Source: Anaerolineae bacterium
GTDB lineage: Bacteria; Chloroflexota; Anaerolineae; DRVO01
Reading direction: 5' to 3'
Assembly (NCBI GenBank): GCA_013178015.1
Contig: JABLXR010000024.1
Span: 1-64,000 of the forward strand
Length of the DNA: 64,000 nucleotides
Numbering within the stretch: position 1 is the first letter of the stretch; each line of letters starts with the position of its first letter. This document shows, piece after piece, positions 5,971 through 60,359 of the stretch. The notes under the pieces are model-generated. The model was not told the DNA's origin. It did no database searches and worked only from the letters and a program-made list of their open reading frames with translations. The position numbers and the translations under genes were made by a program.

Positions 5971-6060
5971 AGGTTACAGGGGATAGGCTCCAGGAGATAG
6001 GGGGAGCTGAGGCGCGCCGGTTCGCTAGGTGGCTCCCTGTCCCCTGTAACCTGTTCCCTA
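5971..6060. repeat. Short-unit inverted repeat, GGTTACAGGGGATAGG family, member 1
   Basis: The left arm AGGTTACAGGGGATAGG (5971-5987) and right arm CCCTGTCCCCTGTAACC (6035-6051, continuing to 6060) are inverted. The outer end of the right arm contains the TAG stop codon of larA (6058-6060, minus strand), so the repeat supplies the end of the gene. The same unit recurs at 7779, 25397 and 58496. Confidence 0.8.
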
Positions 6061-7320
6061 CGACCTGTCCAGCGTCGGCACCACGAACGGGCCTTCGGGC
6101 AGCACTCCCACTCTGGGCCCCTTCTCTTCCACCAGCCGCGCCACCGTCTCTTCCACGTCCCCCGCCGGCAGCAGCAGCGCACTGCGGATCTGCTCCTCGC
6201 TCAGACAGGTGCTGTACACGTAGATGTCGGCGTGCAGCTGGAGCTGCGCCTGAGCCTGGGCCTGCCACTGATCGTGCACCGGCTCCGGAAAGGCGCACAC
6301 GCTCTCCAGCAGCGCCTGGGGAGACTCGGCGGCGCAGATGAGCTCGGCGTAGCGGCCGTGGTCCGGCAGCCCGTCCCAGCACTCGGCCGCCATAACGATG
6401 GCCCCACCCCGGCGGACCACCCTGGCCGCGGCGCTCATCCCCTTGACCGCCTGGTAGAGGTTGAGGTCCAGCGGGTAGCCCCCGTTGCCCGTCACCATCA
6501 CGTCGAAGGGCCGTTCCACCGGCAGCAGGGCAGTGCGACGCACGAACTCCCGCGCCGCCCGATGGGCCGCCAGCATCTCCCCGGCGTACACGCCCGATAT
6601 CTGGCGGTCGCGGTTCAGGGTGACGTTGAGGATGAAGGAGGGCTCGGTCAGGAGAGCCGCCCGCTCGATCAGGACGTACATGGGATTGCCCTCGGTCTGC
6701 AGCCAGGTGCAGCCCGGATGAGCCACCATCTCGTAGTCGTGTGCGTGGAGGATGGTCTCGATCCCGGCCACGCCTGGGAGCACCGCCTTGGGGCCGCCGC
6801 TGAACCCAGCGAAGAAGTGGGGCTCGACGAACCCGGTCAGGATGCGGACGTCTGCCTCCAGATAGTGGCGGTTCACCAGGATGGGATGCCCGCGCTCGCA
6901 GGTACCCACCTGGACCAAGTCAGCCGCATTCCAGGCGTCGTGCTGCAGGATGGGGTACCGGTCCACCACCTCATCGCCCAGCATGCCCCGAAGCTCCGCC
7001 TCAGTCTGGGCACGGTGCGTCCCCAGGGCGTTGATGAGCAGCACCTGGTCCGGAGGCACGTAGTCCAGTTCCTCCAGGAGCACGGGCAGGACCCGATCGT
7101 TGGGCATGGGCCGGGTGATGTCGCTGAAGACCACTGCCACCCGGTCCTCCGCCCTGACTAGCTGCCTCAAGGGAGGGGAGGCAATGGGACGGCGCAAGGC
7201 CTCCCGGATGGCCGCCGCCTCGTCCTCCAGGCCAGGGGCATCCTCCCGTTCGAGAACGGTGACCTCGCCCGGCAGGTCTAGCTCCAGCCATCCCTTGCCG
7301 TACGCCAGCTTCACTCTCAT
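6058..7320 (-). CDS. larA: Nickel-dependent lactate racemase family protein
   Basis: The 420-residue protein matches LarA, which interconverts D- and L-lactate or related 2-hydroxyacids with a nickel-pincer nucleotide bound through a lysine. The family residues are visible and nearly collinear with the Lactobacillus plantarum enzyme: His102 in ALGTHR, His168 and Lys178 in EPHFFAGFSGGPKAVLPG, His192/His194 in HAHDYEM, and Lys293 in GGYPLDLNLYQAVKGM. The start is ATG at 7320 with GGAG ten bases upstream; an upstream TTG gives only eight more residues. The cofactor genes larB, larC and larE are not in the window. The substrate may be another hydroxyacid, since many paralogues are not lactate-specific. 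Confidence 0.9.
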   Translation of the reverse strand: MRVKLAYGKGWLELDLPGEVTVLEREDAPGLEDEAAAIREALRRPIASPPLRQLVRAEDRVAVVFSDITRPMPNDRVLPVLLEELDYVPPDQVLLINALGTHRAQTEAELRGMLGDEVVDRYPILQHDAWNAADLVQVGTCERGHPILVNRHYLEADVRILTGFVEPHFFAGFSGGPKAVLPGVAGIETILHAHDYEMVAHPGCTWLQTEGNPMYVLIERAALLTEPSFILNVTLNRDRQISGVYAGEMLAAHRAAREFVRRTALLPVERPFDVMVTGNGGYPLDLNLYQAVKGMSAAARVVRRGGAIVMAAECWDGLPDHGRYAELICAAESPQALLESVCAFPEPVHDQWQAQAQAQLQLHADIYVYSTCLSEEQIRSALLLPAGDVEETVARLVEEKGPRVGVLPEGPFVVPTLDRS

Positions 7321-7778: not shown

Positions 7779-7888
7779 ACAGGTTACAGGTTTTAGGTTG
7801 TAGGGAATAGGGAGGAGAGGGTCGGCCCTGCAACGCACCCCTATCCCCTGTAACCTATCCCCTACTCCCTGTAACCTGTAACCTGCCC
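7779..7888. repeat. Short-unit inverted repeat, GGTTACAGGGGATAGG family, member 2
   Basis: The left arm (7781-7815) reads AGGTTACAGG, TTAGGTTGTAGGGAATAGGG; the right arm (7838-7888) reads CCCCTATCCCCTGTAACC followed by further CTCCCTGTAACCTGTAACC units. The right arm ends immediately before the TAA stop of the phosphofructokinase gene (7889-7891). In an mRNA through this block it would form a long hairpin. Confidence 0.8.
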
Positions 7889-9112
7889 TTACGACACCTT
7901 CTTCGGTACAGCCACCTTCTTCAGGTAGGCGTACTCCGGCAGCGGGCCGCCGATGAGCGGGCGGGCGTACTTGATGAACGCCTCGGTGACATCGTTGCCC
8001 GCCTCGTTCAAGTACTCGTCGGGGATGAGCTTCTCGGCGTTGGCCACCTTCTCCAGGTCCACCAGGCCGAAGGCGCTGCGGTAGGGCTCGTCGCTCAGCC
8101 GCTCGATGGTCACCATCTTCCCCGTCACTCCGGCGACGGCCTGACGCACGGCCTCCGCACCCACCCCATAGGCCTCGTCGCGGTCCACCGGCGACTGCAA
8201 AGCAGCGGAGACACGCTGGATAGTGCCCGGTTTGTCAAAGCGCGCCTTGAGCTTCAGCCGGTCGGCGATCAGGTTGCAGAGATAGTCGGCCACGCCGCCC
8301 ATCTGGGCATGGCCAAAGGCATCCACATTGATGGCTGAGGTGGACGCCATGAGCGGCTTGCCGTCCTCGCCCTTCGCCCCTTCGCAGACCGCGATCAGGC
8401 AGTACCCCAGGCGGTCGTAGACGTTCTGCACGTCGCTCAGGAAGCGGTCCAGGTTCATGGGCTTCTCGGGGACGTAGATCAGGTGCGGGGCCGCATCCTC
8501 GTGATCGCGCGCCAGCGCACTGGCAGCGGTGACCCAGCCGGCATTGCGGCCCATGATCTCGACGATCTTGATCTTGTCCACCACGCCGATGGCCTCGGTG
8601 TCCAAGCCGGCGTCCCGTACGGAGGAAGCCACCCAGCGGGCCACGCTGCCAAACCCGGGGCAGTGGTCGGTGTAGGCCAGGTCGTTGTCAATCGTCTTCG
8701 GTATGCCGATGGCACGGACCTCGTAGCCCTGCTCGGCGCCCAGGCGGCTGACTCGGTTGGCCGTATCCATGGAGTCGTTGCCGCCAATGTAGAAGAAGTA
8801 ACGGATGTCGTGAGCCCGGAATACCTGGATGATGCGGTCGTAATCCTCTTCGGTGAGTTTGTGGCGGCACGAGCCCAGAGCGGCAGACGGGGTGCGGGTC
8901 AACCCCGAGATGGTGGCTCGGTCTTCCTTGCCCAGGTCAATCAGGTCCTCGTAGAGAATGCCCTCAATGCCGTGCAGCGACCCGTAGACGTGGGCGATGA
9001 CGTCATCGTTCTTGAAGGCCTCCTCCGCCACTCCCGCCACGCTGGCATTGATGACCGCCGTAGGGCCGCCTGACTGGGCCACCACCAGGTTGCCCTTCAG
9101 CTTGCTAGCCAT
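7889..9112 (-). CDS. pfp: 6-phosphofructokinase, pyrophosphate-dependent type
   Basis: The 407-residue enzyme phosphorylates fructose 6-phosphate at C1. Two substitutions mark the PPi-using form: GGND at 110-113 (Asp where ATP enzymes have Gly) and PKTIDNDL at 138-145, with Lys139 in the position that excludes ATP. Other family blocks are SGGPTAVINAS and EIMGRNAGW. The start ATG at 9112 has AGGAGAGG upstream. It follows an aldolase-like and an isomerase gene on the same strand, so the block could run a reversible PPi-linked sugar-phosphate pathway. An 18-bp inverted repeat stands upstream. Confidence 0.9.
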   Translation of the reverse strand: MASKLKGNLVVAQSGGPTAVINASVAGVAEEAFKNDDVIAHVYGSLHGIEGILYEDLIDLGKEDRATISGLTRTPSAALGSCRHKLTEEDYDRIIQVFRAHDIRYFFYIGGNDSMDTANRVSRLGAEQGYEVRAIGIPKTIDNDLAYTDHCPGFGSVARWVASSVRDAGLDTEAIGVVDKIKIVEIMGRNAGWVTAASALARDHEDAAPHLIYVPEKPMNLDRFLSDVQNVYDRLGYCLIAVCEGAKGEDGKPLMASTSAINVDAFGHAQMGGVADYLCNLIADRLKLKARFDKPGTIQRVSAALQSPVDRDEAYGVGAEAVRQAVAGVTGKMVTIERLSDEPYRSAFGLVDLEKVANAEKLIPDEYLNEAGNDVTEAFIKYARPLIGGPLPEYAYLKKVAVPKKVS

Positions 9113-25396: not shown

Positions 25397-25528
25397 AGGT
25401 CACAGGGGATAGGGAATAGGTTACAGGGGGTAGGGAGTCGAGAGACGGCGGCGCCACTGGTTTCGCATGCCTTCCCTATTCCCTATCCCCTGTAACCTAT
25501 TCCCTATCCCCTGTTCCCTATCCCCTGC
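25397..25528. repeat. Short-unit inverted repeat, GGTTACAGGGGATAGG family, member 3
   Basis: The left arm (25397-25437) and the right arm (25471-25528) consist of the units GGGGATAGGGAATAGGTTACAG and inverses, right arm longer by one or two units. It fills the gap between the divergent tsaB promoter and the sensor-kinase gene, the only member not next to a stop codon. A TATAAT (25537-25542) follows directly and may serve the kinase gene, with no good minus-35 box. Confidence 0.8.
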
Positions 25529-28873: not shown

Positions 28874-29019
28874 CACCACAGAGCCCGCAGAGAGCGCCGA
28901 GGAACGAAGAGCAAGAGAAGTGAGGCAGTCGTTGAGGACGCACGAGGAGCAGGAATCGGGCTGTCTCCCATCTGCTCCTTCGCCTCCTCTCTGCGTTCTC
29001 GGCGGCCTCTGCGGTGAGA
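28874..29019. repeat. Short-unit inverted repeat, CGCAGAGAGCGCCGAGG family, member 1
   Basis: The left arm (28874-28917) reads ACCACAGAGCCCGCAGAG and AGCGCCGAGG; the right arm (28975-29019) reads CTCTCTGCGTTCTCGGCGG and CCTCTGCGGTGAGA, the inverse. The left arm begins two bases after the kinase TGA stop. A second member is at 30138. Confidence 0.8.
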
Positions 29020-29038
29020 CCCGAAAGAGAGGCACCAG

Positions 29039-30136
29039 GTGAGCCTGCAGATCGGGATCGTCGGTTTGCCCAACGTAGGCAAGAGCACCCTCTTCAATGC
29101 CCTCACCCAAGCAGGGGCACAGGTGGCTGCCTATCCCTTCACCACCATTGACCCCAACGTGGGGGTAGTGCCCCTCCGCGATGAGCGCCTGGATTGGCTG
29201 GCTGAGCACGTCCGCCCGGAGCGAACCGTCCCGGCCACGGTGGAGTTCGTGGACATCGCCGGCCTGGTTCGAGGCGCCCATCGGGGCGAGGGCCTGGGCA
29301 ATCAGTTCCTGCACCACATTCGCACCGTGGACGCGATAGCCTTGGTGGCGCGTGCCTTCGAGGACCCCGAGATCCCCCATGTATCCTCCACGGTGGACCC
29401 GCTGGAAGACATACAGGTGGTGGAGACCGAGCTCATCCTGGCCGACATGGGTACGGTGGAGCGCCGGCTAGAGCGGGTCCGAGCAGAGGCGAAGGCCAAG
29501 CCACGGGAGCACGCCCCCCAGGTCGAGTTCCTGGGGCGCCTCCAGCAGCACCTGGACAGGGGAGAGAAGGTCCGGTCTCTCCCTAGAAGCGAAGAGGAGC
29601 AGGCGTTGCTGGACGGGCTGTTCCTCCTCACCAACAAGCCGCGCATGTACGTAGTCAACGTGGGAGAGGATCAGCTCGACCGAGTGGCCGAGGTGGTCTC
29701 TCCGGTGGAGGAGCGGGCGCGAGAGGAGGGCGTGCCGGTGGTGGCCATCTGTGCCCGGCTGGAGGCCGACCTAGCCGACTGGACCGAAGAAGAAGCACGC
29801 CAGTACCGCCAGGAGCTGGGCCTGAGCGAATCGGGCCTGCAGACGGTGGTGCGGGTGGCCTTTGATCTTCTGGGTCTGGTGACCTTCTTCACCATAGTGG
29901 GTGGGCGCGAGGTGCGGGCCTGGGAGATCAAGAGAGGCACTTCGGTGGTGCGCGCAGCCGGCAGAATACACAGCGACATGGAGAGAGGCTTCATTCGGGC
30001 CGAGGTGATCGCCTTCGAGGACCTGAGGGCGGCCGGATCGGTCGCAGCCGCTCGGGAGCGGGGCCTGCTCCGAGCCGAAGGCCGCGACTATCCGGTGCAG
30101 GACGGCGACGTCATTCAGATCCGCTTCAGCGCCTGA
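29039..30136 (+). CDS. ychF: Redox-regulated ATPase YchF (Obg family)
   Basis: The 365-residue protein has the P-loop GLPNVGKST at 8-16, [20 protein letters not shown], and NVGE in place of the GTPase NKxD motif, which gives YchF its ATP preference. The C-terminal TGS domain ([22 protein letters not shown] to [11 protein letters not shown]) completes it. YchF binds ribosomes and 26S-like particles and influences stress response. The start GTG at 29039 has GAGAGG upstream. Both flanks carry inverted repeats of the same family. Confidence 0.95.
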
Positions 30137-30137
30137 G

Positions 30138-30279
30138 TTTCACCGCCGAGACCGCAGAGACCGCGGAGGAAACGGAGGGAAGACATATGCTCCAGTTCCT
30201 CACCAGCCCCTTGAGAGGGTCTGCTCTACCCGCTTCCCCCCGGCGTTCTCTCTGCGCTCTCGGCGCTCTCGGCGGTGAA
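30138..30279. repeat. Short-unit inverted repeat, CGCAGAGAGCGCCGAGG family, member 2
   Basis: The left arm (30138-30183) reads TTTCACCGCCGAGACCGCAG and AGACCGCGGAGG; the right arm (30241-30279) ends GCGCTCTCGGCGGTGAA. The left arm starts one base after the ychF TGA stop; the right arm ends 18 bp before the stop of the convergent gene. Confidence 0.8.
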
Positions 30280-35188: not shown

Positions 35189-35247
35189 CCCGACCCCTCG
35201 CACAGTAGTGGGAGCTGGCAGCAGCGACCGCAACGATCACCCGGCCA

Positions 35248-35669
35248 GCGCGGGCCCACTCCAGAGGCAAGCCACCTGTCACCCCGAGCGAGCGGCAGCG
35301 CAGGCTCGGCGCCGGTACGAGCAGCGCGGGCCCGCCCCAGAGGCAAGCCACCTGTCACCCCAAGCGCCAGCGGCGCAGGCTCGGCGCCGGTACGAGCAGC
35401 GCGGGCCCGCCCCAGAGGCAAGCCACCTGTCACCCCGAGCGAGCGGCGCAGGCTCGGCGCCGGTACGAGCAGCGCGGGCCCGCCCCAGAGGCAAGCCACC
35501 TGTCACCGAGCGAGCGGCGCAGGCTCGGCGCCGGTACGAGCAGCGCGGGCCCACTCCAGAGGCAAGCCACCTGTCACCCCGAGCGAGCGGCGCAGGCTCG
35601 GCGCCGGTACGAGCAGCGCGGGCCCGCCCCAGAGGCAAGCCACCTGTCACCCCGAGCGCCAGCGAGGGG
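35248..35669. repeat. Tandem repeat array A, six units of 71-76 bp
   Basis: Units begin with GCGCGGGCCC at 35248, 35324, 35399, 35472, 35543 and 35616 (periods 76, 75, 73, 71, 73). Each contains CCAGAGGCAAGCCACCTGTC, CGAGCGAGCGGCGCAGGCTC and GGCGCCGGTACGAGCAGC, with small indels and a few substitutions. It begins about 60 bp after the CoA-transferase stop. The last unit runs into GAGCGCCAGCGAGGGGTC, a string typical of the dispersed intergenic repeat that continues in array B. Confidence 0.9.
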
Positions 35670-35710
35670 TCTACTACCCCCGAATCCCGGAGATTCCTCG
35701 CCCCTGCGGG

Positions 35711-35945
35711 GCTCGGAATGACAGTGAGAGGCGGCATACTGAAGGTGCTCAGCGAGGGGCACGGGCATCGCCCTCGGAAGGCTCGGAATGACAGCGAGAG
35801 GCGGCATACTGAAGGTGCTCAGCGAGGGGCACGGGCATCGCCCTCGGAAGGCTCGGAATCACAGCGAGAGGCGGCATACTGAAGGTGCCCAGCGAGGGGC
35901 ACGGGCATCGCCCCCGGAAGGCTCGGAATGAGAGCGAGAGGCGGC
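35711..35945. repeat. Tandem repeat array B, 70-bp units, about 3.4 copies
   Basis: Units begin with GCTCGGAATGACAG-like strings at 35711, 35781, 35851 and 35921 (period exactly 70) and contain GCGGCATACTGAAGGTGC and GAGGGGCACGGGCATCGCCC. The last copy breaks off after GCGGCA. No gene is seen between here and 36159. Confidence 0.9.
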
Positions 35946-36159
35946 ACAGCTCATGGCACGCCCCCCGCCGAGCGACCCTCGACTCACCCGTATGTGCTGG
36001 GTCCCGTCTCGGCGCCGGGGCGCCTAAGCAGCGGACGAGCGGGCGGAGGGCGCACCACCTCAGGACAGGAGAGCCCCCTGTCGGGCCAGTACCTGTGGAA
36101 TCTGGCCGCAACTGGCGAGGCCTCCTTGGCTCTGGCCCCTCTAGGACGGCAACGGCGTT

Positions 36160-45043: not shown

Positions 45044-45153
45044 ATAGAACGCGGATGACGCTGACGGTGCGCTGGTCAACGCTGATCAGAGGGAGGGCAT
45101 GCACCTAGAGATCAGCGGCGATCAGCGTGGTGTCAGCGTCATCCGCGTTCTAT
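45044..45153. repeat. Inverted repeat, AACGCGGATGACGCTGA family
   Basis: The left arm (45044-45089) reads ATAGAACGCGGATGACGCTG and CGCTGGTCAACGCTGATCAG; the right arm (45110-45153) is its imperfect inverse ending CGTCATCCGCGTTCTAT. It lies between two minus-strand genes; the right arm ends four bases from the TAG stop at 45158. Strings of this type occur in intergenic DNA of many bacteria. Confidence 0.8.
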
Positions 45154-45979: not shown

Positions 45980-45996
45980 GTCGCACTCCCGTCACT

Positions 45997-46114
45997 CGTG
46001 ATACGTGATACGTGATACGTGATACGTGATGCGTGACGCGTGACGTCTGTCTAGTCACGTATCACGTATCACGTGTCACGTGTCACGCATCACGTATCAC
46101 GCATCACGTATCAC
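45997..46114. repeat. Heptamer inverted repeat, ACGTGAT family
   Basis: The left arm (45997-46045) is a run of CGTGATA units ending CGTGATGCGTGACGCGTGACG. A centre of eight bases follows. The right arm (46054-46114) is a run of inverse units, CACGTATCA and CACGCATCA. The right arm touches the TAG stop codon of the minus-strand isomerase (46114-46116). A transcript would fold into a hairpin of about 50 bp. Confidence 0.9.
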
Positions 46115-46920
46115 TAGAACCCTACCCGCTCCAGAACGCCACTCATGTACTTGATGGCCAGCTTGCCCGCCTGCACGGCACCCTCGGGGTCCTGCGGACC
46201 CAGCGTCTCGATCAGGCACGGGCCGCCGGAAAAACCACCCTCCTTGAGGATACCGAACACGGCCTCGAAGTCCACTTGCCCCGATCCTGGGGTGACGCTG
46301 ACGCTCGGCTTGCCATCGGTACCGATGATGCAGTCCTTGACGCACACACCTACGGTGATGCCGTCGAAGTAGCGCGCCTCAGCCACCGGGTCGAGTTGCT
46401 TGTAGTATAGGATGTTGCCGGGATCATACCACGCCCGGAAAGCAGGATGTCCCACTCTCTTGACCACGTCGGCCGTCTCCTCTCCCGAGGTGGAGATGCC
46501 GCCGTGCGGCTTGATCCCGATGATCACGCCCCTGTCATGAGCGTAGGGGCTGACGGCCTTCATCACTTCGATGTAGGTGTCGTAGGTCTCGGGCTTGTGG
46601 GCACCCATCTCCAGCAGGTGTTTGGCACCGCTGGCCACGGCTCGATCAATGAACTCCCGATAGCGCCGGATGGCTTCGTCCTTGTCCACATCGAAATGTA
46701 CTCGGGCCAGCACGGCGTGCAGCCTCATGCCCCGAGCATCTAGCTGCCGGTGGATATCTTCGATCTCGGAGTAGGGGGTGTTCCATTCCACGTAGGCGCC
46801 CCCACCGGGCTTGCCCAGCAGCCCCACGTGACTGGTGCCGGTGGACAGAATGGCGTCGAGAGCTTCCTCCAAGGGAAGAGGAAGAAACGGGCGGTTGAAG
46901 AAGCCGAGCATGGTTTCCAT
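46114..46920 (-). CDS. Sugar-phosphate isomerase/epimerase family TIM barrel (IolE-like)
   Basis: The 268-residue protein METMLGFFNRPFLPLPLEEA, later RLHAVLARVHFDVDKDEAIRR, GIKPHGGISTSG, WYDPGNILYY and VCVKDCIIG, is another member of the isomerase/epimerase barrel family. Start ATG 46920 overlaps the oxidoreductase stop by one base (TGATG) with GAGG eight bases upstream, so it is co-translated. The coupling with an NAD-sugar oxidoreductase fits an inositol or keto-sugar pathway. Its stop codon abuts the heptamer repeat. Confidence 0.85.
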   Translation of the reverse strand: METMLGFFNRPFLPLPLEEALDAILSTGTSHVGLLGKPGGGAYVEWNTPYSEIEDIHRQLDARGMRLHAVLARVHFDVDKDEAIRRYREFIDRAVASGAKHLLEMGAHKPETYDTYIEVMKAVSPYAHDRGVIIGIKPHGGISTSGEETADVVKRVGHPAFRAWYDPGNILYYKQLDPVAEARYFDGITVGVCVKDCIIGTDGKPSVSVTPGSGQVDFEAVFGILKEGGFSGGPCLIETLGPQDPEGAVQAGKLAIKYMSGVLERVGF

Positions 46921-47948
46921 CACACTGACCTCGGATCAACAGGTTGGCCCGCCTCCGCCGAGCGAAGCGCGGCGAGCGAGACTCGCAGTGCGGCGAGGCC
47001 GTCCTCGCCCGTGGCCGTGGGCGATCCACCAGTTCGAACTGCCTGGGCGAAGGCTTCCGCCTGATGGCGCATGGCTTCCACCATTACGTCCTCGCCGTAC
47101 GGGCCCAATGTAGCTTCCTCGCCACCCTCGGTCAACAGGCGCACGCTGTCGAGGTCGGGGCGCATCAGGCCCTTGGGCCCCCATACCTCGGCGAACGACC
47201 CGCCGCTCACTCCCGGCGGCAGCCCCCAGCTGATGCTGAGCGCCCCCACGTCGCCGGAGGCATAGCGCACCAGGAGGGACACGGTGTCCGGGGCCAGCTG
47301 CTTCAGCCCGGCCAGCTCCGGCCGGCCCTGGGCCAGAGTGAGGGCCTGCGCCTCCACCTGCACCGGCTCGGAGTCGAACGCCAGGCGCCAAAGGTCGAAG
47401 CGGTGGGGGCAGAAGTCCACCACCGGCCCGCCGTTGCCGGTGAGCATATCGTGCATGGCCACCTTGGGGCGGATGGGCATGGTGAAGGTGTACACCCACA
47501 TGGCCGGCCGCCCGATCGCCCCTTCACCCATCAGTCGCACGATGTCGCCGGTGGACCGGAGTTGCCGCAACTGGAACCCGATCCCCAGCCGCACGTCGTT
47601 CCTGCGGGCTGCGGCGATCATGGCCTGGGCCCGCTCCGTGGTCAGGGCGATGGGCTTTTCGCACAGGACGTGCTTGCCCCTCTCAGCCGCGAAAAGCGTC
47701 ACCTCCGGGTGGTAGTGTGCCGGCACGCACACGGATACCACCTGCACAGCGGGGCTCTCCAGGGCCTGGCGGTAGTCCTGGTAAGCGTGCTCGATGCCGT
47801 ACTCCTGGGCCAGGCTCTGGGCCCGCCGCAGGTCCACGTCGGCTACGGCGACCAGCCGCGCCCCCTCCACTGCGGACCAGGCGCGGGCGTGGTTGCGCCC
47901 CATCATGCCGGCCCCGACTATACACACTCCTAGTTCACCCCGTGACAT
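46920..47948 (-). CDS. Gfo/Idh/MocA-family oxidoreductase
   Basis: The 342-residue protein has the NAD(P)-binding GAGMMGRNH at 12-20, the active-site CEKPIALTTE with Lys98, and PVVDFCPHRFDLWRLAF in the second domain. It oxidises a hydroxyl of a sugar, inositol or a glycoside. GGGAGGAG precedes the ATG at 47948. It is the first gene of a run with two isomerases. The substrate cannot be assigned. Confidence 0.88.
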   Translation of the reverse strand: MSRGELGVCIVGAGMMGRNHARAWSAVEGARLVAVADVDLRRAQSLAQEYGIEHAYQDYRQALESPAVQVVSVCVPAHYHPEVTLFAAERGKHVLCEKPIALTTERAQAMIAAARRNDVRLGIGFQLRQLRSTGDIVRLMGEGAIGRPAMWVYTFTMPIRPKVAMHDMLTGNGGPVVDFCPHRFDLWRLAFDSEPVQVEAQALTLAQGRPELAGLKQLAPDTVSLLVRYASGDVGALSISWGLPPGVSGGSFAEVWGPKGLMRPDLDSVRLLTEGGEEATLGPYGEDVMVEAMRHQAEAFAQAVRTGGSPTATGEDGLAALRVSLAALRSAEAGQPVDPRSV

Positions 47949-53551: not shown

Positions 53552-55025
53552 CTACGTCCTGATACCGCTGCTTTCGGCCTCCATGCGCGCGGCCTGGATG
53601 GTGCCCCTCGTCAATGCCTTGCTAGCGAGCGGCTTCTTTGTACCTCGCGGCCTCCATCTGCCCTTCTGGCTGCCTCTGCTGCTACTGGTCGGCGGCTCGA
53701 CTATGGCTCACGCCCTATCGGCGCGGCCCGTGGGTCGGATCATTGCCGGGCTGGCAGGCTTGCTCGCCGTGTTCCTGGTGCTGCTGGTGGTCATGCCCGG
53801 CCCGGATGCGGGGCTTCTCGACTGGCTGGCGAGCCTCTACCGCCAGGCTACCGTCTGGACTGCAGACGCTCCCGCCGTTTGGGTGGTCTTCGCCGTAGGT
53901 GCCGGGCTATGGATGCGGGCCATCACCGTGGATTGGTCCGAGGTGGAGCCCTTGCGCCGGGGCTTCATGACCGGCGTGATCGCTCTGGCGCTGATGACGC
54001 TGGCCGGGGCCACCCGCCATAGCCTGGGTCTGGGGCTCATCAACGGGATCATGGAACCAGTGCTGGTGTTCCTTGCCTCCGGCATGGGCGCTCTCGCCCT
54101 CACCGACATCAGCCGCACCGTCCGCCAGAGTCTGCGCGCCGGCGGCGGCATGCCCTCACTGGGACGCTTCTGGTACCTGGTGGTAGTAGTGGTGGTGGCC
54201 GTAGTGGTGCTGTCCGGCTGGGCGGCCACCTTCCTGGTGGACCCGGAGTCGGTGGTGTCCGTGGTGCGCTGGTTCTCTCCCGTGCTCAGGATCATCACCG
54301 GCGTACTGGCTTACATCATCGTGGCCTTCGCCTACATCATCTTCCGGCTTCTGGCCCCCCTCATCCAATGGCTGAACAGCCTCATCTCCGAAGAGGCACG
54401 AGAGGAACTGGCCCTGCCCACCCCGGAGCCACCCGAGAGTTTCGAGGAGTTCCTCAGTCGCCCAGAAGAGGTTGCGGGTGTGCCGCCCTGGATAGGAACG
54501 CTGGTGATCCTGCTGATCGTGGCGGTAGTGGTGCTGCTCTTCGTGTGGCTACTAAGGCGCCGGTTCGTGAGCAGCGCCGAGGGAGTTCAGGAGACACGGG
54601 AGGTGGACTGGTCTCTGCAACTGATGCGAGACCAGGTATCGCAGTGGCTGGCACGACGCCGGCCTCAGCGCCGCTCGCAATTCGTCCCTCTGGAGCCCGG
54701 CGAGGACCCACGGGTGATCATACGGCAAGCTTACCGGCGAATGCTCAAGCTGACGGCCGAGCGAGGCCTGAACCACCGGCCCTGGGAGACACCGTGGACG
54801 TACGGAAGGTCGCTCTCCCACCGACTGCCCGACATCGCCGACTCCATTGAGGCCCTGACCCGCGCCTACAACGTAGCCCGCTACTCGCCCCTGCCCCCGG
54901 ACGAAGGCACGGTGGAGCGGGCGCGGGAGGCCCTCGGTCGCATCGAGAGCTGGCTCTTCCGCTACGAGACGCCCGACTCGGACGGACGGCGCCCGTCGGA
55001 GCTGGGCAGCCCCAGCCCGGGGTAG
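53523..55025 (+). CDS. Membrane protein with C-terminal DUF4129 domain
   Basis: The 500-residue protein has at least seven membrane segments in the N-terminal 290 residues and another near 340-360. It ends in a cytoplasmic DUF4129 domain (VIIRQAYRRMLKLTAERGL, RPWETPWTYGRSL, ALTRAYNVARYSP). In other bacteria this domain follows a transglutaminase in the TgpA type; no transglutaminase-like Cys-His-Asp set is visible here. ATG 53523 lies inside the DUF58 gene. The last residues SDGRRPSELGSPSPG come from a palindromic stretch shared with tsaD on the other strand. Confidence 0.82.
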   Translation: MNWHRFNWLDYVLIPLLSASMRAAWMVPLVNALLASGFFVPRGLHLPFWLPLLLLVGGSTMAHALSARPVGRIIAGLAGLLAVFLVLLVVMPGPDAGLLDWLASLYRQATVWTADAPAVWVVFAVGAGLWMRAITVDWSEVEPLRRGFMTGVIALALMTLAGATRHSLGLGLINGIMEPVLVFLASGMGALALTDISRTVRQSLRAGGGMPSLGRFWYLVVVVVVAVVVLSGWAATFLVDPESVVSVVRWFSPVLRIITGVLAYIIVAFAYIIFRLLAPLIQWLNSLISEEAREELALPTPEPPESFEEFLSRPEEVAGVPPWIGTLVILLIVAVVVLLFVWLLRRRFVSSAEGVQETREVDWSLQLMRDQVSQWLARRRPQRRSQFVPLEPGEDPRVIIRQAYRRMLKLTAERGLNHRPWETPWTYGRSLSHRLPDIADSIEALTRAYNVARYSPLPPDEGTVERAREALGRIESWLFRYETPDSDGRRPSELGSPSPG

Positions 55026-57358: not shown

Positions 57359-58513
57359 ATGACCTCACGCGAGCGCCTTCTGACGGCCCTGGATCACCGC
57401 GAGCCCGACCGCGTTCCCTTCGACCTGGGCAGTACCCAGGTCACCGGCATCACGGTGAAGGCCTACCTCAACCTCCGCCGCTACCTAGGCCTCCCCGAGG
57501 TCCAACCCACCATCCCCGACGCCATCCAGCAGCTGGCGCTCCCGGACGATGACTTGGTGGAGAGATGGGGCATTGACGTACGCGGTCTATTCCCTCTAAA
57601 CGCCCACAACTGGAACGTGGTCAACCAGGACGCCGGCGAGTACTGGCAGTACACCGACGAGTGGGGCATCACCTACCACATGCCCAAGGAAGGGGGGCTC
57701 TACTACACCATCGTGCGCAGCCCTCTGGCCGGCCCCAGCACCTCCCCTCAGGCGATCGAAGCACACCCGTGGCCCGATTGCGGCGATCCTCGGCGCATCG
57801 AGGGCCTGCGGGAACAGGCCGAGCGCTACCGGGCCCAGGGCAAGGCCGTGATGATCAAGGGCGTGCTGGCCGGCATCTTCGAGATGGCCCAGCGCCTCCG
57901 GGGCACCGAGGACTTCATGGTGGACCTGCTGGCGGACCGTGCCTCGGCCGAGGCGCTGCTGGACAAGATGGTCCAGTGCAAGCTGGACTTCTGGGAGATG
58001 GCCCTGCCCCGGCTGGGCGATGTGGTGGACGCGGTCTCCGAGGCGGACGACTACGGCACCCAGATATCGCAACTCATCTCGCCCCGTATGTTCCGCGAGG
58101 TAATGAAGCCCCGGCTGCGAGTGATCCATGAACGCATTCACCAGCTGGCGCCCCACGCCAAGCTCTTCTTCCATACCTGCGGCAGCGTGCGCGAGATCCT
58201 GCCGGACCTCATAGAGGTGGGAGTGGACATCCTCAACCCAGTGCACGTGCGGGCCGCCGGTATGGAGCCAGCCGCCCTGAAGCGGGACTTCGGCGATGCG
58301 CTGGTGTTCTGGGGCGGGGGAGTGGACACCCAGGGGGTGCTGCCTCATGGCACCCCGGAGGAGGTGCGAGAAGACGTCAGGCGCAACGTCGAGGCCCTGA
58401 TGCCCGGCGGCGGCTACGTCTTCAACACCATCCACAACATCCAGGCCGACGTGCCTCCCGAGAACATCGTGGCCATGTGGGAAACAGTCATGCAGATAGG
58501 TTACAGGGAATAG
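57359..58513 (+). CDS. URO-D-like (methyltransferase-type) protein
   Basis: The 384-residue protein MTSRERLLTALDHREPDRVP, GSTQVTG, later KLFFHTCGSVREILPDLIEVGVDILNPV and FWGGGVDTQG, is a second full-length URO-D-like protein and a paralogue of the gene at 1-668. The HTCG site is the proposed zinc/thiolate site of methyltransferase-type members. GAGGAG stands six bases before ATG 57359. The last codons (IGYRE) and the TAG stop lie inside an inverted repeat, so the C-terminus may have been set by the repeat insertion. Confidence 0.85.
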   Translation: MTSRERLLTALDHREPDRVPFDLGSTQVTGITVKAYLNLRRYLGLPEVQPTIPDAIQQLALPDDDLVERWGIDVRGLFPLNAHNWNVVNQDAGEYWQYTDEWGITYHMPKEGGLYYTIVRSPLAGPSTSPQAIEAHPWPDCGDPRRIEGLREQAERYRAQGKAVMIKGVLAGIFEMAQRLRGTEDFMVDLLADRASAEALLDKMVQCKLDFWEMALPRLGDVVDAVSEADDYGTQISQLISPRMFREVMKPRLRVIHERIHQLAPHAKLFFHTCGSVREILPDLIEVGVDILNPVHVRAAGMEPAALKRDFGDALVFWGGGVDTQGVLPHGTPEEVREDVRRNVEALMPGGGYVFNTIHNIQADVPPENIVAMWETVMQIGYRE

Positions 58514-58647
58514 GTTATAGGGAATAGGTTATAGGTTACAGGGAACAGGTTGTAGGGAATAGGACATAAGCGACGCAAAGGCTATTCCCTATTCCCCTAT
58601 TCCCTAACCCCTATAACCTATAACCTGTAACCTGTAACCTATAACCT
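58496..58647. repeat. Short-unit inverted repeat, GGTTACAGGGGATAGG family, member 4
   Basis: The left arm (58496-58563) holds about six units of GGTTATAGGGAATAG or GGTTACAGGGAACAG; the right arm (58582-58647) is the inverse. It spans a convergent gene pair: the TAG of the URO-D-like gene (58511-58513) lies in the left arm and the TAG of the minus-strand gene (58639-58641) in the right arm. Both genes therefore end within the repeat. Confidence 0.9.
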
Positions 58648-58905
58648 CATCTCCCTCAGGGTCCTGACGCTCCAGTTGCTGAGGTAGCCGCGGTAGGGAG
58701 CCACGTACGTCTCGATGGCCTTCTGTACGTCCTCTACCTTGTCGTCCTCGGCGTCCAGTTCCAGCGTGTACCGGGGGGAACTGCCGGCCCGGTACACCCG
58801 CACGCCCGTCACGCCCGGGATGGAGCGCGCCTGAGAGATAGCCTGCCTGCCCTCGTAGCTGTCAACGGCTTCGTAGGAGTCGAAGGCGATCACCAGCTTG
58901 GCCAT
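58639..58905 (-). CDS. Small conserved-looking protein downstream of selA
   Basis: The 88-residue protein MAKLVIAFDSYEAVDSYEGR with VTGVRVYRAGSSPRYTLELD and DVQKAIETYV has an alpha/beta ferredoxin-like pattern (beta-alpha-beta-beta-alpha-beta), similar to small dimeric stress-responsive proteins. The function is unknown. ATG 58905 has AGGAGG upstream. It is 56 bp behind selA on the same strand, probably co-transcribed. Its last codon before the stop (TTA TAG) is repeat-derived. Confidence 0.75.
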   Translation of the reverse strand: MAKLVIAFDSYEAVDSYEGRQAISQARSIPGVTGVRVYRAGSSPRYTLELDAEDDKVEDVQKAIETYVAPYRGYLSNWSVRTLREMRL

Positions 58906-58961: not shown

Positions 58962-60332
58962 TTACCGGTCGCCCCGACCGGTCAGTGCCATTCGAACCCT
59001 GACGATGAGCGCCTCGTCTTGGCCCGGGAGCACCGTTCGGGGATCGAGGACGAGGGCGTCGTCCTCCACCCGGGCGATCACCGGGGGCTCACCGTGCCGC
59101 AGCGCCACTGCCGCTGCCTGGGGATCGGCCAGGGGCAGGGCCAGCACCACGGTGGGCAGGGTCTGTCCCGGCAACGAGCCCCCGCCCACGGCGCTTCGGC
59201 TCGGGCGCAACTCCCCCCGCCCCAGAGCCTCCCGCCAGCGGCGCGCCCGTGCCTCCAGGTCGGACACGTCGGCGGCGATCATGCGCCAGACGGGGACCGA
59301 CTCCGCCTCGGCTCCCCGGCGGTACTGCAGCAGGGTGGCCTGCAGCGCCGCCAGGGTAAGCTTGCCCACGCGCAGAGCGCGCATAAGCGGATGCCGCCGC
59401 AGGGGTGCTACGCTCTCCTCCCGTCCCACGATGACACCCGCCTGGGGCCCGCCCAGGAGCTTGTCGCCACTGAAGCTCACCAGGTCGGCTCCGGCCTCCA
59501 AGCATTCCTGTGTGGTAGGCTCATGGGCCAGTCCGTACGCGGCCGTGTCCCGCAGAGCGCCGGAGCCCACATCGGCGTAGAACCGGGCGCCCACGCTGTG
59601 CGCTGCTTGGGCCAGTTCCTCTAGCCCCGGCTCGTGCACGAATCCCTGAAGCTGGAAGTTGCTGCGATGTACGTACATGAACAGGGCCGTCTGCTCGCCC
59701 GATGCCCGAAGGTAGTCCTCCACGTACGTGCGGTTGGTGGTACCCACCTCGACCAGGCGGGCCCCGCTCTGGGCCATCACCTCCGGAATGCGGAACCCCC
59801 CGCCGATCTCCACCAGCTGGCTGCGCGAGATCACCACTTCTCGGCCCTGGGCCAGGGTCATCAGCACTAGCAAGACTGCCGCGGCGTTGTTGTTGACCAC
59901 CAGGGCGGCCTCGGCACCCGTGAGCTCGCAAAGGTCTCGCTCGGCGTGAACGTGCCGCGACCCCCGCCTGCCCTGAGCCAAGTCGTACTCCAGGGTGCTG
60001 TATCCCCCCGCCACCGAGGCCATTGCTTCGAGAGCCTCGGGTGCCAGCGGGGCCCGGCCAAGATTGGTATGCACGATAACGCCGGAAGCGTTGATCACCG
60101 GGCGCAACGAGGGTCGGGTAAGGGCCTCCACTACCTGGCGCACCGCTGTCGCCCAATCCGCCTGCGGCGGTTCGCCCTGAAGCAGCCTTTCCCTCTCGGC
60201 CTGAGTGGCCTGACGAGCCGCCTCCACCACCACGTCGTGCCCCCAACGCTCCTCCAGGGCCCGCACTTCGGCCAGCTCAAGCAGCGCTGAGACGCTCGGT
60301 ATGTGGCGCAAGGACCCGCTTTCCCGATTCAT
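58962..60332 (-). CDS. selA: L-seryl-tRNA(Sec) selenium transferase
   Basis: The 456-residue PLP enzyme has RPVINASGVIVHTNLGRAPL, EYDLAQGRRGSRHVHAE, VVNNNAAAVLLVL and VSFSGDKLLGGPQAGVIVG with PLP lysine 291. It converts seryl-tRNA(Sec) to selenocysteinyl-tRNA with selenophosphate. The ATG at 60332 follows a good promoter (60360-60388); the ribosome-binding site is weak. No selB, selD or selenocysteine tRNA gene is seen in this window, so the rest of the pathway must lie elsewhere. Confidence 0.93.
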   Translation of the reverse strand: MNRESGSLRHIPSVSALLELAEVRALEERWGHDVVVEAARQATQAERERLLQGEPPQADWATAVRQVVEALTRPSLRPVINASGVIVHTNLGRAPLAPEALEAMASVAGGYSTLEYDLAQGRRGSRHVHAERDLCELTGAEAALVVNNNAAAVLLVLMTLAQGREVVISRSQLVEIGGGFRIPEVMAQSGARLVEVGTTNRTYVEDYLRASGEQTALFMYVHRSNFQLQGFVHEPGLEELAQAAHSVGARFYADVGSGALRDTAAYGLAHEPTTQECLEAGADLVSFSGDKLLGGPQAGVIVGREESVAPLRRHPLMRALRVGKLTLAALQATLLQYRRGAEAESVPVWRMIAADVSDLEARARRWREALGRGELRPSRSAVGGGSLPGQTLPTVVLALPLADPQAAAVALRHGEPPVIARVEDDALVLDPRTVLPGQDEALIVRVRMALTGRGDR

Positions 60333-60359
60333 GGGCACCCAATGTGAAGCAGTGCAAAG

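Follow-up and report, generated by a model that had tools for sequence, protein, structure and literature searches.

The inverted array of heptamers that fills the gap between two convergent genes of the analyzed window (a stretch of 64,000 nucleotides on contig 24; the draft genome totals 4.57 Mb, with a G+C content of 66% in the 830 kb measured) is probably one copy of a lineage-specific repeat family, which took over the position of a terminator; the stop codons that it provides to both genes would be a by-product. The coordinates of the element, of its flanking genes and of the other family copies in the window are reported in Table 1.

Table 1. Localization of the focal element, its flanking genes and their stop codons, and of further family members in the window.
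Feature	Position	Strand	Description
URO-D family gene	57359..58513	+	384 aa; Pfam PF01208 (E 9.3e-28)
Conserved protein gene	58639..58905	-	88 aa; no Pfam match
TAG stop of URO-D family gene	58511..58513	+	Within left arm, offset -16 from the first AGG of the arm
TAG stop of 88-aa gene	58641-58639	-	Within right arm, offset -9
Left arm	58496..58563	+	GGTTACA GGGAATA GGTTATA GGGAATA GGTTATA GGTTACA GGGAACA GGTTGTA GGGAATA; begins ATAGGTTACAGGGAATAGGTTATAGGG
Spacer (loop)	58564..58582		19 nt, ACATAAGCGACGCAAAGGC; shared by none of the other elements
Right arm	58583..58647	-	Heptamer types of the left arm, inverted; G-rich on the minus strand, C-rich on the plus strand
Second heptamer hairpin, GGTTAYA/GGGRAYA family	5971..6059		Right end gives TAG to gene 6058-7320 (-)
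Third heptamer hairpin, GGTTAYA/GGGRAYA family	7781..7884		4 nt past the TAA of gene 7889-9112 (-)
Fourth heptamer hairpin, GGTTAYA/GGGRAYA family	25397..25526		Divergent gap

Read directly from the sequence, the array (58496-58647) occupies the whole gap, and its arms are composed of 7-nt units, drawn from a restricted alphabet, mainly GGTTAYA and GGGRAYA. The GGG tracts are interrupted, in the focal family, by the GG-only GGTTAYA units. When up to one mismatch is allowed, the window contains 16 copies of GGTTATAGGG, where 1.73 would be expected; none of 100 shuffled sequences reached 16. The predicted RNA fold of the element has an energy of -76.6 kcal/mol, versus -40.3 for shuffles (z = -9.0). 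A stable stem-loop thus follows the stop codon, while no U-tract is found directly 3' of the stem, either by terminator-site prediction or in the sequence at the element; neither a sigma-70 promoter nor a U-tract terminator was found there, and the entire window has no match in Rfam. The gene for SelA (selenocysteine synthase) is found beside the element, at 58962-60338.

The sequence-only reading had placed both convergent TAG stops within the arms of one element, and had described the last codons of both proteins as derived from the repeat: both statements hold. The URO-D family gene ends in ATG CAG ATA GGT TAC AGG GAA TAG (MQIGYRE*), where I-G-Y-R-E-stop comes from the repeat; the 88-aa gene ends in ATG AGG TTA TAG (MRL*), where R-L-stop does. 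Two to five terminal residues per protein are therefore encoded by the repeat at this gap. Two other points need amendment: the element is indeed built of heptamers, but its arms mix several of them, GGTTAYA and GGGRAYA, rather than repeating one unit type; and the unit does carry TAG, but the phase of insertion matters less than had been proposed, because seven is not a multiple of three and successive units give TAG in successive frames. At least two frames are closed by 49 of the 70 arms with three or more units, versus 55 of 300 ordinary intergenic 38-mers.

The family was surveyed in 830 kb of the 4.57-Mb genome, consisting of the window and of regions mostly centered on copies found by pattern; genes were called by a purpose-built scorer, whose starts are approximate, while 3' ends are set by the stop codon. 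Genome-wide, 98 matches to a two-unit pattern are found, and 52 GGTTAYA/GGGRAYA hairpin or arm groups are present in the 830 kb. The family features tandem G-rich units of 7 bases, at least two per arm, with a median arm length of 31 nt. Arms are paired in inverted orientation in 29 of 48 groups, the G-rich arm always coming first, whichever strand is read (29 "+-", 0 "-+"), and spacers are unique to each copy. Members are dispersed over the genome, near stop codons on the coding strand; arrays often reach the stop codon of the preceding gene, or end about 10-20 nt short of the next start codon.

The provision of stop codons extends beyond the focal pair: of the 40 gene 3' ends located within 40 nt of an element in the 830 kb, 27 have their stop inside the array, in all cases a TAG. 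Their offsets are -2 (10 genes), -9 (7), -16 (4), -23 (4), -44 and -45, the main ones being spaced by seven. TAG is also used by 215 of 498 genes (43%) not associated with elements, despite the 66% G+C. As to gap type, GGTTAYA/GGGRAYA arrays are present in all, divergent ones included, and for this family alone the enrichment in convergent over divergent gaps is not significant (p = 0.41); when four repeat-hairpin families are pooled, 19 of 58 convergent gaps are occupied versus 10 of 79 divergent ones (p = 0.006).

The evidence on the origin of the focal hairpin comes from genomes lacking the repeat. Copies of the family are found in none of 30 relatives, including G001, a member of the same genus. 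The focal gene pair is kept in the same arrangement in G001 and in a second relative, G002. There, the URO-D family protein ends in ...METLMEVGRY* or ...LQRYGRY* (METVMQIGYRE* in the window), and its 383 residues, closed by a TAG of its own, compare with 384 in the window, a shift of +1. The small protein (68% identity) ends in LREMKM* or LREMPL* (LREMRL* in the window), at the same residue, with its own TAA. The element thus did not cut the two genes short, since the orthologues end, on stops of their own, within one residue; this largely agrees with the outcome that the sequence-only reading had named as refuting its proposal. The same tendency is seen in the 16 reciprocal G001 orthologues of genes with in-array stops, where C-terminal shifts are +1, +1, 0, 0, 0, -4, +2, +7, +1, -5, -1, 0, +11, 0, -5 and +4, with a median of 0; among control orthologues, 27 of 43 show no shift.

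Nor do gap lengths fit a simple insertion that ended both genes. The focal gap is 125 nt long with the element and 104 nt in G001; the other six syntenic gaps measure, with the element and in G001, 157/169, 224/90, 113/155, 122/205, 106/90 and 104/28 nt. Overall, the seven gaps span 104-224 nt with the element versus 28-205 nt without it, and no systematic lengthening is apparent. The focal gap of G001 contains an ordinary 12-bp GC stem-loop, ACGGCTCCACC...GGTGGAGCCGT, absent from the window. GC stems of 10-14 bp are found in all four syntenic convergent gaps of G001 (the focal one, L061, L082 and L087), as well as after the L069 and L076 genes; each of them scores above the 95% level of shuffles. 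Since gap length is similar, a GC stem-loop is present in G001 and the proteins end alike, the heptamer hairpin is taken to have replaced a native, terminator-like hairpin. On a plain reading of the sequences, the native stem-loop would have given way to the heptamer hairpin with no new stop added inside a gene, the open reading frames keeping a near-native length. Among the 16 G001 orthologues of in-array genes, 14 end on a native TAG, compared with a base rate of 87/155 (p = 0.008): arrays could favor sites with a native TAG.

The probable course of events is the following. Repeat slippage and inverted copying would make the arms grow and turn over, and the array would spread until halted by selection on coding sequences or ribosome-binding sites. 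If the native stop is overrun, its role would pass to the earliest TAG that lies in frame within the array; such a TAG is nearly certain to be present, since units of seven bases run through every frame. The long hairpin, present in the RNA of both genes, would probably replace the lost terminator or 3'-end stem-loop. Stop supply would then permit the array to adjoin gene ends, without being the reason for its retention. A role of the hairpin in termination or in 3'-end protection is plausible, judging from its position, its predicted folding and the apparent replacement of a stem-loop. The missing U-tract, and the non-significant enrichment of the family by itself in convergent gaps, speak against such a role. 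In Neisseria and Haemophilus, paired DNA uptake sequences act as terminators: these are dispersed short repeats, which in inverted pairs form stem-loops at gene ends. The focal hairpin differs from such pairs in the lack of a U-tract.

Arm turnover may be followed in a tandem gene duplicate (L081; 8909-9023 and 9867-9988), where the spacer is near-identical while the arms have changed in the kinds of unit and in how many they contain; arms thus turn over faster than the spacer. The unit order of the two arms agrees weakly (p = 0.014 for the full unit, p = 0.14 for the class), which is why the idea that one arm exactly copies the other in inverse orientation was rejected. Spacers were also considered, and rejected, as remnants of native terminators: 14 spacer-gap pairs show no consistent excess over mismatched pairs. 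The focal spacer has a single 9-nt match to the loop of the G001 terminator, unconvincing by itself. Comparison of spacers with the G001 gap sequence gives no clear match that would favor growth in place over insertion followed by deletion.

The arrays may, alternatively, be a neutral satellite with no function at the RNA level, generated by slippage in tolerant intergenic DNA and excluded from genes and ribosome-binding sites. This is unlikely, although several observations are in its favor: arrays occur in all types of gap, including divergent ones, arms are unstable and match each other weakly in unit order, and the stop-forming position is unbiased (see below). A neutral satellite does not account for the frequent inverted pairs, for folding far better than that of shuffles, for the presence of some GC stem-loop in all the syntenic convergent gaps of the relative, or for the preference of the pooled hairpin families for convergent gaps.

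Other repeats are found in the genome. Three further families of repeat hairpins, located in similar gaps, are composed of CGTGATR heptamers, of the GCTGAT family and of CACAGAGAC-type nonamers, the last with a unit devoid of stop codons. CGTGATR hairpins occupy several convergent gaps (L078, L082, L092), where the TGA of the gene is often in register with the unit; in the window, an unrelated CGTGATA hairpin (45990-46117) adjoins the TAG stop of gene 46114-46923 (-). The gaps on either side of gene 29039-30136, at 28874-29021 and 30141-30278, are filled by nonamer inverted repeats (CACAGAGAC/CCGCAGAGA), and repeats of this kind are also seen in other loci. The inverted repeat at 45044-45153, GATAGAACGCGGATGACGCTGA..., features a recurring end motif; in two loci with repeats of this type (L096, L097), the preceding gene stops at the TAG of a GATAG located beside the array. 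Two adjacent intergenic tandem arrays, with units of 73 and 70 nt, are located at 35246-35946. Finally, two convergent open reading frames overlap by 64 nt (54962-55025) through a GC palindrome, so that SDGRRPSE is present at both C-termini; their counterparts in G001 overlap by 61 nt and lack the shared peptide.

Also conceivable, and quite unlikely, is the seeding of hairpins in register at stop codons, where active copying, starting from the stop (TAG in the GGTTATA family, TGA in the CGTGATA family), would convert the native terminator 3' of it into a repeat hairpin. Signs of it may be seen in the commonest offset, which corresponds to the very first TAG of the array (10/27), in the steps of seven, in the 6 of 12 CGTGATA-family ends in register, in the native TAG of 14 of 16 orthologues and in the recurrence of offset -2 in several other genomes.

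Selection of the element as a portable stop codon and terminator, as advanced in the sequence-only reading, is highly doubtful. It may be seen as supported by the number of stops that come from the array, at both focal genes and at many sites genome-wide, by the presence of a stop in the unit of two unrelated heptamer families (TAG in GGTTATA-type, TGA in CGTGATA-type units), and by the closure of more frames than in ordinary intergenic DNA. Yet native stops already closed the genes at that position. Moreover, at the seventh position, where T rather than C forms TAG, T is found in 103 of 205 cases (50.2%) in 3'-facing arms and in 53 of 108 (49.1%) in 5'-facing ones, where a stop would be useless (p = 0.91). 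Units without stops, such as the CACAGAGAC nonamer here and GGGAATC in Xanthomonas (PMC4692102), are found at the same places, and the stop-less hairpin families lie as close to gene ends as the GGTTAYA/GGGRAYA family. Stops inside the array are rare in the CGTGATR (1/12), GCTGAT (0/11) and CACAGAGAC-type (1/10) families; CGTGATR arrays are in register with a stop codon at their start in 6 of 12 cases, five of them TGA.

Least probable is the insertion of a whole REP/RAYT or MITE-type mobile element at gene ends: copies are dispersed, palindromic and located 3' of genes, and GTAG-REPs are reported to give TAG stops often (PMC3733652), but here spacers and termini vary between copies, gaps are not lengthened by the length of the element, and the sole Y1 transposase-family gene (PF01797) of the genome has no family copy in its 3.3-kb locus.

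The reading of the element as one member of a heptamer family at a terminator position finds parallels in known systems. G-rich heptameric repeats are described in Xanthomonas (GGGAATC) and Nostoc (GGGGAYT) by Rehm et al. 2015 (PMC4692102). In Xanthomonas, each genome contains 70-75 inverted convergent heptamer pairs; the repeats are G-rich on the coding strand just past stops and C-rich before starts, some overlap stop codons, and their sites are little conserved between species (PMC4692102). In assembled transcripts, starts and stops are commoner at quadruplex-forming than at control repeats (PMC4692102). The family described here is similar in its seven-base G-rich units, in its inverted pairs and in its dispersal near stops; its unit consensus, GGTTAYA/GGGRAYA, is not GGGAATC, and it is therefore a different family of the same kind. 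Its units carry TAG, absent from the forward strand of GGGAATC, so that the array, unlike GGGAATC, supplies stops. A further difference from the Xanthomonas case is the availability of a syntenic relative, showing the ordinary stem-loop that was replaced.

According to Di Nocera et al. 2013 (PMC3733652), the ends of GTAG-REPs, which lie between unidirectional and convergent genes, "often provide" the neighboring ORFs with a TAG stop. The focal family resembles them as a palindromic repeat giving TAG stops to flanking genes; unlike REPs, which are single hairpins of 20-40 bp with an unpaired GTAG tag and RAYT genes, it is made of tandem heptamers, with no fixed core and no RAYT link. In Beggiatoaceae, TAACTGA heptamers form direct repeats that hold stops, and the resulting limit on the overlap with coding ends has been noted (MacGregor 2015, PMC4679880); they are mostly found just 5' of start codons, while the focal arms are inverted.

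A 32-nt family pattern finds matches in Anabaena, Dolichospermum, Nostoc, Chloracidobacterium, Planctomycetota, Fibrobacteria, Peregrinibacteria and a Paludibacteraceae MAG; within the phylum, 7 of 400 genomes, including that of the window, have a match, one mismatch being allowed. In several of these genomes, TAG capture is seen again: the flanking gene stops at the first TAG of the array in L158, L161, L165, L167, L170 and the Nostoc locus L152, and a few units into it in L160. As to the cyanobacterial STRR heptamers, the exact focal units are also present in Nostoc, Anabaena and Dolichospermum, and the L152 array gives TAG to a 497-aa gene, just as the focal arrays do; the cyanobacterial loci seen are, however, long one-way arrays, unpaired or weakly paired, unlike the focal hairpin.

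REP ends as a source of TAG stops (PMC3733652) and stop-bearing heptamers at coding ends (PMC4679880) are already published; what is new is the presence in this genome of an inverted heptamer family bearing stops, together with the number of stops that it captured and the comparison of syntenic regions with and without the repeat. In that comparison, the hairpin displaced a terminator-like stem-loop and reset both stops, leaving the proteins almost unchanged. The case makes an old question directly testable, namely whether intergenic repeat hairpins terminate transcription, and the L081 duplicate offers a natural clock for arm turnover. It also carries a warning: C-termini such as ...GYRE, ...GNRE or ...GDRL can come from repeats.
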